In this document: piece after piece, positions 4,495 to 55,466 of the stretch
Layout: each line of letters opens with the position of its first letter
How positions within the stretch are numbered: the stretch's first letter is position 1
Source of the DNA: Nocardioides scoriae
GTDB taxonomy: Bacteria > Actinomycetota > Actinomycetes > Propionibacteriales > Nocardioidaceae
Direction of reading: 5' to 3'
Length of the DNA stretch: 64,000 nucleotides
Assembly: GCF_900104965.1 (NCBI RefSeq)
Contig: NZ_LT629757.1
Coordinates: forward strand, 3,100,001-3,164,000
Made by a program: the position numbers and the translations under genes
The notes under the pieces: model-generated
What the model was told of the DNA's origin: nothing
Seen by the model: the letters and a program-made list of their open reading frames with translations, nothing else
The model's database searches: none

Positions 4495-4890
4495 ATGACC
4501 ACCCTGCGCGATCTCGCCGACGAACGCTTCGTCTCCCTCACCACGCACCGCCGATCCGGCGAGGGCGTGCCCACCCCGGTGTGGGTCGTGCCCGACGGCG
4601 TGGACGGCGCCGCGGTCTGGACGCCGGCCGGCAGCGGCAAGGTCAAGCGGCTGCGCCGCGACGAGCGCGTCACCCTGCGCCCCTGCGACCGCCGCGGTCG
4701 CGTCGCCGACGACGCCCCCACCGTCGAGGCCCGGGCGGGGGTCAGCACCGAGCCTTCCGACCTCGACCGCGTCGAGGGCCTGCTGCGGGCGAAGTACCGC
4801 CTCGAGTTCCGCATCGTCGGGCTCGTCGAGCGGATCGCGCGCCGCGGGCGCGGTGCCGAGCGCGCGGTCGTGGCGATCCGCCCCGCGTAG
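4495..4890 (+). CDS. PPOX-class F420-dependent oxidoreductase
   Basis: A 131-aa split-barrel protein of the pyridoxamine-5'-phosphate-oxidase-like superfamily. The N-terminus TTHRRSGEGVPTPVWV and the central GSGKVKRLRRDERVTL match the small actinobacterial F420/FMN-binding PPOX proteins. Substrate unknown. The start codon lies 6 nt after a CAGGCT -10-like box, and no Shine-Dalgarno is visible, so it is probably leaderless. Divergent partner: the RHII-RSD gene. Confidence 0.85.
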   Translation: MTTLRDLADERFVSLTTHRRSGEGVPTPVWVVPDGVDGAAVWTPAGSGKVKRLRRDERVTLRPCDRRGRVADDAPTVEARAGVSTEPSDLDRVEGLLRAKYRLEFRIVGLVERIARRGRGAERAVVAIRPA

Positions 4891-19656: not shown

Positions 19657-21171
19657 GTGGCCGGGCAGACCACCCGCTGGTTGTTCGGCGACCAGCTCGG
19701 ACCGCACTTCGCCGACGACCACGACGGCGACTTCCTCCTGATCGAGTCGCGCCGGGTCTTCGCCCGCAAGCGCTACCACCGCGCCAAGGCCCACCTGGTG
19801 CTCTCGGCGATGCGCCACCGCGCGGTCGAGCTCGGGGACCGCGTCCGCTACGTGCAGTCCGACACCTACGTCGGCGGGCTGGGTCGGCGCACCCGCGACC
19901 TGCAGGTGGTCGCGCCCACGTCGTACGCCGCCCGCGACCTGGTCGACCGGCTCGTCGCGGACCCCGACCGGCCCCGTGACATCGAGCGGCTGGCTGCCCG
20001 CGGCTTCGTCACCAGCCAGGCCGACTTCGCCCACTGGGCCGAGGGGCGCGGCGGCAAGCGGCTGCTGATGGAGGACTTCTACCGCGACGCCCGGCGCCGC
20101 CACGGCGTGCTGCTCGAGGGCTCGTCCCCCGACCCGGAGGGCGGCCGGTGGAACCTCGACCACGAGAACCGCGAGCCCCCGCCGAAGGGAGCCACCACCC
20201 TCGGGGTCGACCCGCCGCCGTGGCCCGAGGAGGACGAGATCGACGCGGAGGTGCGCGCCGACCTCGACCGCTGGGAGGCCGACGGCGACGTGTCCTTCCT
20301 CGGCCAGGACGGGCCCCGGCTGTTCGCCGCCACCCGGGCCGAGGCCGAGGCCGTGCTCGACCACTTCCTGGCCCACCGGCTCGCGACCTTCGGCGCCCAC
20401 GAGGACGCCATCCTCGAGGGCGACCCCTGGATGTCGCACTCGATGCTGTCCGCGCCCATGAACCTCGGCCTGCTCGACCCGCTCGACGTCGTACGACGGG
20501 CCGAGGAGGTCTACCGCTCGGGTGACGTCCCGCTCGCGTCGGTCGAGGGCTTCGTCCGCCAGGTGATGGGCTGGCGCGACTACATCTGGCACCTCTACTG
20601 GCACCTCGGGCCCGACTACCGCCGTGGCAACGCCCTGCAGCACCGCCGCGAGCTGCCCGACTGGTTCGCCGAGCTCGACGGGTCGGCGACCCGGGCGCGC
20701 TGCCTCTCGCACACCCTCGACGGCGTCGCCGAGCGCGGCTGGGTGCACCACATCCCGCGGCTGATGGTGCTCGGCAGCTACGGCCTGCAGCGCGGCTGGT
20801 CGCCGCAGGAGCTGACCGACTGGTTCCACCGCGCCTTCGTCGACGGCTACGACTGGGTGATGGTGCCCAACGTGGTCGGGATGTCGCAGCACGCCGACGG
20901 CGGGGTGCTGGCCACCAAGCCCTACACCTCGGGCGGCGCCTACCTCAACAAGATGTCGGACCACTGCGGGTCCTGCGAGCTGAAGCCGACGGTGCGCGTC
21001 GGGGACGACGCCTGCCCCTTCACCGCCGGCTACTGGTGGTTCCTCGACCGCCACCGCGAGGAGCTCGGTGCCAACCAGCGGATGGCGCGCGCCGTCAACG
21101 GCCTCGGCCGCCTCAAGGACCTGCCCGAGCTCGTCGAGCAGGAGGAGCGGCGCGGCAGCAGCGCGCCCTGA
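19657..21171 (+). CDS. Cryptochrome/photolyase-related FeS-BCP (prokaryotic (6-4) photolyase type)
   Basis: A 504-aa protein beginning TTRWLFGDQLGPHF, the signature of the iron-sulfur bacterial cryptochrome/photolyase group. Four cysteines, Cys349 (RARCLSH), Cys437, Cys440 and Cys453 (CGSCELKP...DAC), have exactly the spacing of the [4Fe-4S] ligands of Agrobacterium PhrB (350, 438, 441, 454). Known members bind FAD and a lumazine antenna and repair (6-4) photoproducts. GTG start, 15 bp after the SRPBCC stop, so probably co-transcribed. The 3' end meets a long repeat array. Confidence 0.92.
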   Translation: MAGQTTRWLFGDQLGPHFADDHDGDFLLIESRRVFARKRYHRAKAHLVLSAMRHRAVELGDRVRYVQSDTYVGGLGRRTRDLQVVAPTSYAARDLVDRLVADPDRPRDIERLAARGFVTSQADFAHWAEGRGGKRLLMEDFYRDARRRHGVLLEGSSPDPEGGRWNLDHENREPPPKGATTLGVDPPPWPEEDEIDAEVRADLDRWEADGDVSFLGQDGPRLFAATRAEAEAVLDHFLAHRLATFGAHEDAILEGDPWMSHSMLSAPMNLGLLDPLDVVRRAEEVYRSGDVPLASVEGFVRQVMGWRDYIWHLYWHLGPDYRRGNALQHRRELPDWFAELDGSATRARCLSHTLDGVAERGWVHHIPRLMVLGSYGLQRGWSPQELTDWFHRAFVDGYDWVMVPNVVGMSQHADGGVLATKPYTSGGAYLNKMSDHCGSCELKPTVRVGDDACPFTAGYWWFLDRHREELGANQRMARAVNGLGRLKDLPELVEQEERRGSSAP

Positions 21172-21177
21172 GCCGCC

Positions 21178-21388
21178 GCCGAGCGGGCGATGGCAGCCCG
21201 CCGCGAGACGCCGAGCGGGCGATTGCGGCCCGCCGGGAGACGCCGATCGGGCGATTGCAGCACGCTGTGGCGCGCCGAGCGGGCGATTGCCGCACGCGCG
21301 GCGTACGACGATCGCCCGGTCGGCGTCGTGCGGCGTACGACGATCGCCCGGTCGGTGTCGTGGGGCGTACGACGATCGCCCGGTCGGC
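21178..21388. repeat. Head-to-head array of seven 32-bp repeats
   Basis: Four direct units (starting 21178, 21210, 21242, 21274; core GCCGAGCGGGCGATTGC) are followed by three units in the opposite orientation (21293-21324, 21325-21356, 21357-21388; core GGCGTACGACGATCGCCCGG). Within each block the period is exactly 32 bp and no spacers separate the units. The array fills the gap between the convergent photolyase and TspO-like genes. A weaker related copy may lie at about 21409-21424 inside the TspO-like 3' end. Confidence 0.9.
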
Positions 21389-21391
21389 GGG

Positions 21392-22201
21392 CTAGCGCGT
21401 GCCGGGACCGCCCGCTCGGCGGAGGAGGAGGGCGGCGCCGACCGTGACCACGGCGGCGGCCACTGCCGCCACCGCGGTCGGGGTCGACGCGGGCGAGGCC
21501 TGGGTGCGGCCGACGGCGATCCAGACCAGGCCCCAGGCGCTGGCGGCCGCGACCGACCAGCGGGCGCCGAGGCGGCCGGCGAGCACGACGCCGAGCGCGG
21601 CGACGACGGCCAGCACGAGGACGGCGGCGACCTCGGCGACCAGCCGGGAGGGCTCGACCCCGCTGGCGACCAGGGCCGCCGTGACGTTGGCGCACACCGC
21701 GACGCACACCCAGCCGAGGTAGAGGCCGAAGGTGCCGTCGACCACGACCCGCTCCACGGTCCCGCCGGCAGGACGGCCGCTGAGGCGGCGCACCAGCACG
21801 CCGAGCGTGGCCACGAGCGCCACGATGACGCCGACGCTGACCCAGATCCAGCCCTGCTGGGTGACCAGCAACCAGGCCGCGTTGAGCACCATCGAGGCGG
21901 CGGCCAGCCATCCGACCGAGCGGGCACGCGGGTCGCTCGCGCGGCCGGGCAGCCACTGCCAGACGGTGTACGCCGCGAGACCGGCGTACACCACCGACCA
22001 GATCGAGAACGCCGGGCCGGCCGGGGCGAGCAGCGTGGCCTCGGAGGAGAGCGCACCGCCCGAGGACTCCGCGACCCGGGTGCCGAGCACGCCCACGCCC
22101 ACGAGGGTGCCGAGGACGCAGAACACCTCGGCCAGGGTGACGCCGACCTGGCGCACGCGGTCGGAGGGGAGGGGCCGGGTGGCGGTCGCGGTGGGCTCCA
22201 T
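21392..22201 (-). CDS. TspO/MBR-related tryptophan-rich membrane protein
   Basis: A 269-aa membrane protein with about eight hydrophobic segments. Segment 58-85 contains PAGPAFSIWSVVYAGLAAY, which resembles the TspO/MBR signature (Pro-rich turn, then W and Y in the second helix). It is longer than classical TspO (about 160 aa), as in the extended bacterial group. Ligand (porphyrin, sterol or other) unknown. The ATG follows a CACCAT box by 6 nt on the minus strand, suggesting a leaderless start, divergent from the SDR gene. Confidence 0.65.
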   Translation of the reverse strand: MEPTATATRPLPSDRVRQVGVTLAEVFCVLGTLVGVGVLGTRVAESSGGALSSEATLLAPAGPAFSIWSVVYAGLAAYTVWQWLPGRASDPRARSVGWLAAASMVLNAAWLLVTQQGWIWVSVGVIVALVATLGVLVRRLSGRPAGGTVERVVVDGTFGLYLGWVCVAVCANVTAALVASGVEPSRLVAEVAAVLVLAVVAALGVVLAGRLGARWSVAAASAWGLVWIAVGRTQASPASTPTAVAAVAAAVVTVGAALLLRRAGGPGTR

Positions 22202-46942: not shown

Positions 46943-47721
46943 GCCCGTCCCGCGCGGACCTGGTCGCCGACTGCTCCCGCTGCGTCGGCCTGTGCTGCGT
47001 GGTCCCGGCCTTCGCCCCGTCCGCCGACTTCGCGCTCGACAAGCCGGCGGGCGTGCCGTGCCCGCACCTCGGCCTCCACCCGGCCGAGCACTTCGGCTGC
47101 ACCATCCACACCGAGCTGCCCGAGCGCGGGTTCGCCGGATGCACGGTCTACGACTGCTTCGGCGCCGGCCAGCGGGTGGCGCAGGCCCCGTCGTACGCCG
47201 GCCACGACTGGCGCGACCCGGACGTGCGACCGGCGATGTTCGCCGACTTCGAGGTGGTCGAGCGGCTCCACGAGCTGCAGTGGTACCTCCTCGAGGCCGT
47301 CGAGCGCTGCCCCGACCCGGCCCTGGTCGACGAGGCGGAGGGGCTGCTCGAGCAGGTCGAGCGGGCCGCCGCGTCGCCGCGCGACGTCGAGGTGGTGCGC
47401 CTGCAGCTGCGCGCCGACCCGCTGCTGGGCGAGGTCAGCGACGCGGTCCGGGAGCCGGCCGGGGTCGACCTGCGCGGCCACGACCTCGCCGGCCAGGACC
47501 TGCGCGGGCACGACCTGGTCGCCGCGACCCTGCGGGGCGCGGTGCTGCTGGGGGCCGACCTGCGCGGCGTCGACCTCACCGGGACCGACCTGCTGGGCGC
47601 CGACCTGCGCGGGGCCGACCTGCGGGGGGCCGACGCGTCCGGCGCGCTGTTCTGGACCCGGCTGCAGCTGCGCGCCGCCCGCACCGACACGACGACCCGG
47701 CTGCCGGACCTCCCGGCCTGA
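46939..47721 (+). CDS. Cys-cluster plus pentapeptide-repeat protein
   Basis: A 260-aa protein. The N-terminal half has a Cys/His set: DCSRCVGLCC, PCPHLGLH, HFGCTIH and GCTVYDCFGAGQ, like YkgJ-type metal or Fe-S binding domains. The C-terminal quarter is a pentapeptide repeat (A/L-x-L/D-R-G pattern: LRGHDLAGQDLRGHDL, then about eight further turns). The function is unknown. GTG start in GTGA overlap with the racemase, so it is probably under the same operator. Both halves occur together in other actinobacterial proteins that I recall only as unnamed. Confidence 0.78.
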   Translation: MSPSRADLVADCSRCVGLCCVVPAFAPSADFALDKPAGVPCPHLGLHPAEHFGCTIHTELPERGFAGCTVYDCFGAGQRVAQAPSYAGHDWRDPDVRPAMFADFEVVERLHELQWYLLEAVERCPDPALVDEAEGLLEQVERAAASPRDVEVVRLQLRADPLLGEVSDAVREPAGVDLRGHDLAGQDLRGHDLVAATLRGAVLLGADLRGVDLTGTDLLGADLRGADLRGADASGALFWTRLQLRAARTDTTTRLPDLPA

Positions 47722-53168: not shown

Positions 53169-55349
53169 ATGACTGACTCCGCAGTGACCTACGACCGCGA
53201 CGCCGACGGCATCGTGACCCTCACCCTCGACGACCCGCAGTCGAGCGCCAACACCATGAACGAGCGCTACAAGGCCTCGATGCACGCGGCCGTCGAGCGC
53301 CTCGTCGCCGAGAAGGACGACGTGCGCGGCGTGGTCGTGGCCTCGGCCAAGAAGACCTTCTTCGCCGGCGGCGACCTCAAGGGCATGGTCACCACGACCG
53401 CCGCCGACGCCGAGCGCGTCTTCCACGAGGTCGAGCAGGTCAAGGCCGACCTGCGTCGCCTCGAGACCCTCGGCAAGCCCGTCGTGGCCGCGATCAACGG
53501 TGCGGCGCTGGGCGGCGGCCTCGAGATCGCGCTGGCCTGCCACCACCGCATCGCCGTGGACGGCCGCTACGAGATCGGCCTGCCCGAGGCCACGCTGGGC
53601 CTGCTGCCCGGCGGCGGCGGCGTCACCCGCACGGTGCGGATGTTCGGCATCCAGACCGCGCTCATGGACCTGCTGCTCCAGGGTCCCCGGATGAAGCCCG
53701 CGGCCGCGAAGGACAAGGGCCTGGTCGACGAGCTGGTCCCGAGCCAGGAGGAGCTGCTCCCCGCCGCCCGCGCCTGGGTGCTGGCCCACGCCGACGACGA
53801 GGCCGGCCAGGTCGGCCAGCCGTGGGACCGCGAGGGCTACCGGCTGCCCGGCGGCACCCCGAGCACGCCCAAGCTCGCGGCGTTCCTGCCGGCCTTCCCG
53901 GCGATGCTGCGCAAGCAGGTCAAGGGCGCCGACTACCCCGCGCAGCGCGCGATCATGGCGGCCGCCATCGAGGGCGCCCAGGTCGACTTCGAGACCGCGA
54001 CCCGCATCGAGTCGCGCTACCTCGCCGAGCTGATCACCGGCTCCAACAGCAAGAACATGATCCAGGCGTTCTTCTTCGACCTCTCGGCCATCAACGGCGG
54101 GTCGCTGCGACCCGCGGGCGTGCCGCGGTTCGCGCCGACCAAGGTGGGCGTCCTGGGCGCCGGGATGATGGGGGCCGGCATCGCCTACTCCTGCGCCCGC
54201 GCCGGCATGCAGGTCGTGCTCAAGGACGTCGCGCAGGAGTCGGCCGACAAGGGCAAGGCCTACAGCGACAAGATCCTGTCCAAGGCCGTCGAGCGCGGCT
54301 CGATGACCGAGGCGGCCAAGGCCGAGGTCCTCGACCGGATCACCGCCACGACCGAGGCCTCCGACTTCGCCGGGGTCGACCTCGTCATCGAGGCCGTGTT
54401 CGAGGACCCCGCGCTCAAGGCCCGGGTGTACGCCGAGATCCAGGACGTCGTGCAGCCCGACGCGCTGCTGTGCTCCAACACCTCGACGCTGCCGATCACC
54501 GGCCTCGCCGACGCGGTCTCGCGCCCGGCCGACTTCATCGGCCTGCACTTCTTCAGCCCCGTCGACAAGATGCCGCTGGTGGAGATCATCAAGGGCGACC
54601 AGACCTCCGACGAGTCGGTGGCCCGCGCCCTCGACGTCGTGCAGGCGATCCGCAAGACCCCGATCGTGGTCAACGACAGCCGCGGCTTCTACACCAGCCG
54701 CGTCATCGGCACGATGGTCAACGAGGGCCTCGCCATGCTCGGCGAGGGCGTCCACCCGAGCTCGGTCGAGCGGGCCGCGACGCAGGCGGGCTACCCCGTC
54801 GGCACGCTGCAGCTCTCCGACGAGCTCAACATGGAGCTGATGGCCAAGATCGCCAAGGCCACCGCCGAGGCCGAGGGCGACGCGTTCACCCCCCACCCCG
54901 CCTCGACGGTGATCGAGACGATGCTCGCCGAGGGCCGCTCCGGTCGGCTGCGCGGCGCCGGCTTCTACGACTACGACGAGTCCGGCCGGCGCACCACGCT
55001 GTGGCCGGGCCTGAAGGACCTCTTCCCGCCCCAGGACGACCCCGCCGACCTCGACGACCTCAAGGACCGCTACCTGTTCATCGAGGCCCTCGAGACCGCG
55101 AAGTGCTTCGAGGAGGGCGTCATCGAGTCGGCCGCCGCGGCCAACATCGGCTCGATCATGGGCATCGGCTACCCGCCCCTGACCGGCGGCACCGTCCAGT
55201 TCATGCAGGGGTACGACGGCGCGACCGGCCAGGGCCTGCGCGGGTTCGTCGAGCGCGCCGACCAGCTCGCCAAGCTCCACGGCGACCGCTTCGCCCCCAC
55301 CGACCGCCTGCGCGAGATGGCCGAGAAGGGCGAGACCTTCCCCGCCTGA
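53169..55349 (+). CDS. fadB: Enoyl-CoA hydratase/3-hydroxyacyl-CoA dehydrogenase FadB
   Basis: A 726-aa two-enzyme protein. Residues 1-290 are crotonase: [22 protein letters not shown] and [15 protein letters not shown] supply the oxyanion hole and the two Glu. From about 320 comes 3-hydroxyacyl-CoA dehydrogenase: [30 protein letters not shown] with catalytic His, and [11 protein letters not shown]. It performs hydration and oxidation in beta-oxidation. The ribosome site AGGAAG precedes the ATG. The stop codon is the first TGA of a 10-bp tandem repeat. Confidence 0.95.
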
Positions 55350-55400
55350 CCCCGCCTGACCCCGTCTGACCCCGTCTGGCCCCGCCTGACCCCGCCTGAC
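55341..55400. repeat. 10-bp tandem repeat CCCGCCTGAC, six units
   Basis: Six contiguous 10-bp units, units 3 and 4 with one or two changes. The first unit contains the fadB stop. Because the period is 10, successive TGA triplets fall in all three frames (55347, 55357, 55367). A seventh degenerate unit follows. Confidence 0.9.
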
Positions 55401-55466
55401 CCGGCCAGGCCCCCCGAAGTCCGCAAACCGGACACGTCGGGGGGCCGGCTCGGGGACCATGGGCGG

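Follow-up and report, generated by a model that had tools for sequence, protein, structure and literature searches.

Direct repeats of the iteron type are phased by whole helical turns, and replication or regulatory proteins bind them cooperatively along a single face of the DNA. MIRUs are mycobacterial tandem repeats of variable unit number located within operons. GTAG REPs often supply the stop codon of the adjoining gene (PMC3733652), REPs bind several proteins (PMC2817692), and those lying 15 nt or less from a stop codon have been reported to stall ribosomes (PMC12306157). In the Beggiatoaceae, TAACTGA sequences occur as dispersed intergenic direct repeats beside gene codons and have been suggested to be binding sites (PMC4679880).

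The head-to-head array of 32-bp repeats studied here lies between two convergent genes in a 64-kb stretch of Nocardioides scoriae DNA (the window), and belongs to a family that can be compared with those systems. Like REPs and BIMEs, its members are short, intergenic, present in high copy number and close to stop codons and between convergent genes, but they consist of direct tandem units in two inward arms, show helical quantisation and have no stem common to the genomes compared, and the 13 genomes searched gave no RAYT match. Their near-constant spacing, close to a multiple of 10.5 bp, is reminiscent of iterons, whereas the many dispersed gene-end loci, the two opposed arms and the lack of a replication-origin context are not. 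With bidirectional or I-shaped terminators of GC-rich bacteria they share the location between convergent genes and, at many loci, a central hairpin; they differ in having long phased arms, in folding ordinarily in several genomes and, in N. scoriae, in arms that avoid complementarity. MIRUs are likewise actinobacterial tandem repeats of variable unit number but have another sequence and unit length and lie within operons, while the arrays are found mainly at convergent gene ends. The TAACTGA unit has 7 bases and lies near start codons, and the abstract describing it makes no mention of head-to-head arms (PMC4679880).

The array at the photolyase locus and its family in N. scoriae

The features of the locus are collected in Table 1. 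Every step is of 32 bp, and the units abut, each containing an 8-nt semi-conserved spacer; Tandem Repeats Finder scored the array at 158 and 170. As a control, the position weight matrix (PWM) applied to the reversed sequence (about 165 kb, both strands) gave a single match above a score of 11. The original prediction described four direct units followed by three inverted ones. Its head-to-head blocks and exact 32-bp steps were recovered, but the minus units number four, the additional one being the weaker unit that extends over the stop codon of the gene on the minus strand, which makes the array 4 + 4. The innermost units of both strands share 13 bp and create the central palindrome, whose 19-bp arms match at 84%; the 60 nt of this junction fold at a dG of -43.6. 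The left neighbour is photolyase-related, as its match to PF04244 shows (1.7e-34), while the TspO-like label given to the right-hand gene found no support: this ORF had no match in Pfam at E<=1e-3 (two chance-level rows at E<=10, with 0.45 and 0.8), in NCBIfam at 0.1 or among PDB sequences at E<=1.

Table 1. Position of the array units and flanking genes in the window
Feature	Position	Strand	Remarks
Photolyase-related gene (DPRP, PF04244)	19657..21171	+	TGA stop at 21169-21171, followed by 6 nt and the first + unit
+ arm unit 1, 32 bp	21178..21209	+	PWM 31.2
+ arm unit 2	21210..21241	+	PWM 33.3
+ arm unit 3	21242..21273	+	PWM 33.5
+ arm unit 4, innermost	21274..21305	+	PWM 30.4
Central palindrome	21275..21323		Innermost + core start to innermost minus core end; 49 bp, the commonest span of the family
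Minus arm unit 4, innermost	21293..21324	-	PWM 32.8
Minus arm unit 3	21325..21356	-	PWM 36.7
Minus arm unit 2	21357..21388	-	PWM 40.4
Minus arm unit 1, outermost	21389..21420	-	PWM 27.8; weaker, covers the stop of the minus gene
Convergent 269-aa ORF, no recognised family	21392..22201	-	Stop at 21392-21394

Among the 58 gene junctions of the window, 11 are convergent and only one of these carries an array, so the array is not a general terminator. The window also contains a 10-bp tandem repeat, CCCCGCCTGA, at 55340-55406 (6.7 copies, 91% match), separate from the 32-bp array, and at 47460-47634 a run of 15/30-bp repeats resembling pentapeptide-repeat coding sequence.

The unit recurs, dispersed and in head-to-head arrangement, both in its own genome and in other Nocardioidaceae. 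In the 4.06-Mb genome of N. scoriae (G000) the unit pattern, allowing up to 2 mismatches, had 53 + 61 matches, against 1 + 0 for the reversed pattern, and the array is thus not a product of chance. A PWM refined on 20 stretches gave 143 matches (1 in the reversed-sequence control), which correspond to 130 units at 17 loci once a contig-end duplicate and weak matches are removed. The duplicate arises because the two contig ends, C1:1-6657 and 4051826-4058482 (L039 and L055), overlap by 6657 bp and are identical over the 5000 compared; the contig is an unclosed circular assembly whose break falls inside one array, and L039 was omitted from the counts. Although units were detected without regard to spacing, all 103 same-strand neighbour steps were of exactly 32 bp. 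Identity between adjacent units was 0.97 at core positions 3-11 and 0.675 at positions 25-31, the latter spacer positions differing at 234 of 721 compared sites. Judging from the invariant step, the nearly identical core and the variable spacer, the unit appears to be under constraint in its spacing and core but not in its spacer. Units resemble each other more within a block than between blocks (0.776 vs 0.668).

Spacing, polarity and helical phase across genomes

The family was surveyed at 117 loci from 30 genomes, selected by array matches and comprising 213 blocks. Genes were called with a simple caller, units located deeper than 40 nt within called genes were left out, and 6 blocks without both flanking genes were dropped, leaving 207 classifiable. 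At the level of sequence, five properties of these arrays are established: polarity, stop-codon anchoring, a near-constant step of 31 or 32 bp, a quantised centre and a genome-specific unit.

The step was 32 bp in 310 and 31 bp in 166 of 496 cases (476 together), with 20 of other length. It is mostly single-valued in each genome; a minority value appears in G254 (63 steps at 32 bp, 4 at 31), G234 (33 and 3, respectively), G230 (20 at 31 bp, 3 at 32), G178 and G017, and in G004 and G333 each value is represented by one step. A single-unit search, blind to tandem structure, returned steps of 31 bp in G229 (50 matches) and mainly of 32 bp in G254 (Nocardioides sp. Soil805), the latter among the approximately 100 of 223 matches listed.

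Blocks are runs of 2-9 direct units without alternation, and they paired head-to-head in 87 cases (69 facing inward within 300 bp and 18 within 1.5 kb) and tail-to-tail in none. Both arms had at least two units at 88 of the 117 loci; 14 more had a lone opposite core at the inner side and 15 had none. Most blocks (177 of 207) are sense to the adjoining stop codon, which lies within 40 nt of the block start in 162 of these 177 and occupies exactly unit positions 3-5, usually CGA in other units, in 48. An inward core lies no more than 200 nt away in 22 of the remaining 30 blocks. Convergent junctions hold 134 of the 207 blocks, co-directional junctions 67 and divergent ones 6, while the baseline of the window is 11 convergent junctions in 58. 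At L045, L047, L048, L076, L080 and L081 an extra gene of about 0.75-1 kb lies between the facing arms, its own stop lacking a sense array. Of the 30 proteins scanned from array loci, most fall into ordinary families of metabolism or housekeeping (among them GTPase with KH domain, RelA/SpoT, RbpA, SHMT and H+-pyrophosphatase), and no common pathway was visible among them.

The span of the centre, taken between the first base of the innermost + core and the last base of the innermost minus core, shows clusters at 27, 38-40, 48-50 and 58-61 bp; a few values lie at 70-71 and 82. For the strict set, with at least two units in both arms (64 loci, 25 genomes), R was 0.672 at 10.5 bp; the best period was 10.75 bp (bootstrap 10.30-11.25), and none of 2000 jittered sets was as strong. 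Off-peak spans in this set include 35, 43, 44, 54, 63, 64 and 79. With p values that overstate independence, since loci and genomes are related, the signal persisted when one value was taken per orthologous group (n=56, R=0.636, p about 1.5e-10) and when the 47-51 peak was removed (n=37, R=0.507, p about 7e-5), and was weak for distinct span values alone (R 0.378, p 0.024). The orthologous-group set takes in some lone-core spans, the photolyase locus counting as 42 there and as 49 in the strict set. Inter-core sequences of loci with a span of 48-50 have a mean identity of 48%, so that the main peak does not derive from the copying of a single centre. Between orthologous loci the span often changes by nearly whole turns (59 vs 27; 71 vs 48-49; 39 vs 48-50), whereas other differences fit whole turns poorly (49 vs 83; 37 vs 40 vs 58). 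Helical phasing is demonstrated statistically by these data. Together with a step of 31/32 bp, that is three turns, the quantised centre is the strongest sign of an element acting as double-stranded DNA, with its sites on a fixed face.

Distribution and evolution of the family

A strict two-unit pattern had matches in 9 of 341 Nocardioidaceae genomes. A sequence profile of two units, R1, built from 51 sequences with no structure, matched 72 of the 341 at E<=1e-3; in 37 of these it had four or more matches. In a class-wide sample of 394 genomes, those outside the Nocardioidaceae had just one or two weak R1 matches each; across both samples, strong array matches were confined to some Nocardioidaceae. 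These counts overlook some arrays (G281 has 3 + 3 units at rbpA, yet no R1 match) and, the genomes having been gathered by patterns and a model built on 32-bp units, apply to periods near that value, very different ones escaping the search. Phage, plasmid and viral contigs contained no match to the window sequence or to the exact two-unit pattern. Rfam returned six matches, all under the gathering score, the best being miRNA-like matches to the central hairpin. The arrays do not conform to CRISPR: the units abut, and no Cas family was present among the 30 proteins scanned from array loci. The original prediction knew of no named family with this unit, and none has come to light: no description of the family stood among the open-licence PMC papers listed in literature searches. 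The gene-end arrays apparently constitute a large, undescribed family in these soil bacteria.

In the photolyase 3' flanks of 47 relatives, examined out of 80 obtained, an array of this family was present only in Marmoricola sp. Leaf446 (Nocardioidaceae, G009), a strain of the 32-bp type. Several other Nocardioides species carry a different inverted element just after the photolyase stop (L102, L103, L108 and L111, with one arm in L106), its arms containing, by eye, GAAGGCAGTTCGCG and the complement; possibly this is a second 3'-end repeat family. In an uncultured Pseudokineococcus (L133, about 4547-4786) the photolyase stop is followed by a tandem run of 5.8 copies, the unit being about 42 bp long and each copy able, by eye, to form a hairpin (GGGGCGAC...GTCGCCCC), perhaps an unrelated parallel of the 3'-end arrays.

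Many loci are common to several genomes and genera. Sixteen orthologous groups share arrays, which vary in unit number and in some cases have a step of 31 bp in one genome and 32 bp in another. The arrays at the rbpA-pgl locus are of the 32-bp type in six genomes and of the 31-bp type in four, indicating that the period follows the genome at inherited loci. The unit sequence likewise follows the genome and not the locus: identity at positions 12-24 was 0.502 between orthologous loci of different genomes (80 pairs) and 0.498 between unrelated loci of different genomes, against 0.658 between loci of one genome. With positions 12-24 more alike within a genome (65.8%) than between orthologous loci (50.2%), this is concerted evolution, which could proceed through exchange between loci or through adaptation to a common trans-acting factor.

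A proposed nucleoprotein element and its alternatives

Stop-codon anchoring, the quantised centre and the genome-wide 31/32-bp step, none of them noted in the original prediction, point to a DNA-protein array. We propose, with a probability of about one half, that the arrays are two-armed nucleoprotein elements at gene 3' ends, in which polar, helix-phased putative binding sites would form a two-sided barrier, mainly between convergent genes. In the model, each arm would be a polar tandem row of putative sites with the core CCGA(C/G)CGGGC, beginning at the stop codon, and the two arms would face each other, held on a fixed face of the DNA helix. A sequence-specific protein would oligomerise along both arms, the geometry of the protein setting the 31- or 32-bp step of each species. 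With less confidence, the resulting complex might be a two-sided barrier or insulator between convergent genes, halting RNA polymerase that arrives from either side; it might also, or instead, handle positive supercoils gathering there, and the central hairpin, where present, may contribute intrinsic termination. In Escherichia coli, positive supercoils accumulate between convergent genes (PMC8360656), and one proposal is that gyrase cuts REPs at gene 3' ends to relieve the supercoiling that transcription induces (PMC3733652); these reports provide a plausible physiological setting for such a barrier. A more far-reaching version, which we advance only tentatively, is that a dedicated sequence-specific protein polymerises on the opposed arrays into a symmetric barrier, that its geometry forced the species-wide change between 31 and 32 bp, and that the arrays represent a new class of bacterial chromosomal element. 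If the nucleoprotein reading holds, gene ends in bacteria bear an insulator-like element that obeys rules of polarity, helical phase and a single period per genome, all legible from sequence alone. The arrays would then also be a natural example of joint change in a binding geometry and the many sites it uses, and would offer a testable explanation for the separation of convergent genes in GC-rich actinobacteria.

The main rival to a nucleoprotein array is a bidirectional intrinsic terminator acting through RNA, which we consider unlikely. In it, the centre would be the terminator hairpin, and the arms either amplified hairpin halves that pair in read-through RNA or rows of unit hairpins. The position of the arrays at stop codons of convergent genes would suit such a function, as would the central hairpin, strong in many of 35 junctions, the photolyase locus included, and weak elsewhere (L191, -7.7); an added terminator function of this hairpin is possible. 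I-shaped terminators lacking a U tract have also been reported from GC-rich bacteria (PMC8269248). Unit hairpins, CGGGCA-N5-TGCCCG, are found in 31-bp genomes such as G229 and G329, where the mean sense z against shuffles was -1.84 (7 blocks) and -1.99 (2 blocks); low values were also obtained in G005 (-2.18, 4 blocks) and G008 (-1.70, 4 blocks), blocks of G173 and G230 (few in each) fold somewhat better than shuffles, and the antisense strand scores lower still in G229 and G230. However, in G000, G234 and G254 the folding of single arrays does not surpass that of shuffled sequences (mean sense z -0.66, 0.02 and 0.12). In G000, the genome of origin, covariation within the unit is not Watson-Crick, and a per-block RNA hairpin is unsupported. 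Nor is selection for pairing between arms supported there: arms of one locus were less complementary than random arm pairs (0.643 vs 0.678, with 1999 of 2000 permutations reaching or exceeding the observed value; Wilcoxon p 0.005, n=13 loci), the opposite of what a paired-arm hairpin requires. Avoidance of unstable long palindromes may explain this low complementarity. Complementarity is no higher for inner than for outer units (0.72 vs 0.76, p 0.15, n=35), and RNA hairpins leave span quantisation and the constant step unexplained. From the original suggestion of a large hairpin, the capacity of the array centre to form one stands, while a long array-wide RNA hairpin as the function lacks support in this genome.

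Resemblance to a REP/BIME-type element had also been suggested, in which case a transposase would have spread the arrays as non-autonomous mobile repeats, which would be tolerated where genes end. Dispersal, with more than 100 units in both G000 and G254, and the genome-specific unit sequence would agree with mobility, and REPs are similarly intergenic, located at 3' ends and between convergent genes, sometimes holding the stop codon (PMC3733652; PMC2817692). Nevertheless, this origin is improbable. The RAYT-like transposase that was sought was not found: Y1_Tnp (PF01797) had no match in any of 13 genomes searched, while the same search was positive in 5 of 14 named genomes, E. coli among them. 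BIME REPs alternate, whereas the block pairs divide 87 to 0 in favour of the inward orientation; many loci are conserved across genomes and genera; and transposition does not predict helical quantisation. Together with the missing common stem, these results do not bear out membership in the REP/BIME group.

DNA gyrase is universal, whereas strong array matches are restricted to some Nocardioidaceae, and both the sequence and the period of the unit differ by genome. For these reasons we give little credence to the view that the arrays are BIME-2-like strong gyrase sites, based on wrapping and helical periodicity, that would remove positive supercoils between convergent genes with no dedicated protein. 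Their convergent location and helical phasing would fit, and binding of gyrase to BIME-2 has been reported (PMC2817692), but the A/T periodicity of the unit that wrapping would call for is modest, with a third harmonic of 0.02-0.22. As for a functionless minisatellite produced by local slippage, the variation in unit number between orthologous loci and the greater likeness of units within blocks are what slippage would leave behind. A genome-wide family with conserved core and step, anchored at stop codons and with loci conserved across genera, makes it a negligible prospect, and the purely local product contemplated in the original prediction is refuted by this dispersed and conserved distribution.

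A gene for the protein required by the nucleoprotein model was considered at the rbpA locus, where in many genomes the arms enclose a two-domain gene of the AbiEi type whose product has a weak REase-like match in its C-terminal part. In many Nocardioidaceae the gene for this AbiEi-antitoxin-like protein (L045:3719-4696 and orthologues) has rbpA on one side and a gene of the 6-phosphogluconolactonase family on the other. Close copies (E<=1e-85) occur in 28 of the 37 genomes that have four or more R1 matches, and in 7 of the 304 others. In a survey of 27 stretches, consisting of 26 orthologous neighbourhoods (one ending at a contig end) and one paralogue, array blocks flank the gene on both sides in 16 of the 26. 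The gene occupies the same place with no array in G158, G175, G181, G216 and G304; G251 has none at the rbpA-pgl locus, and in L215 an array is present but the gene is missing. What looked like a RAYT-style cognate relationship is weakened by the five genomes with the gene and no array and by the reverse situation in L215. The association may reflect shared ancestry, and the AbiEi-type gene is a weak candidate for the cognate binding protein. Its copy in G008 carries an internal stop.
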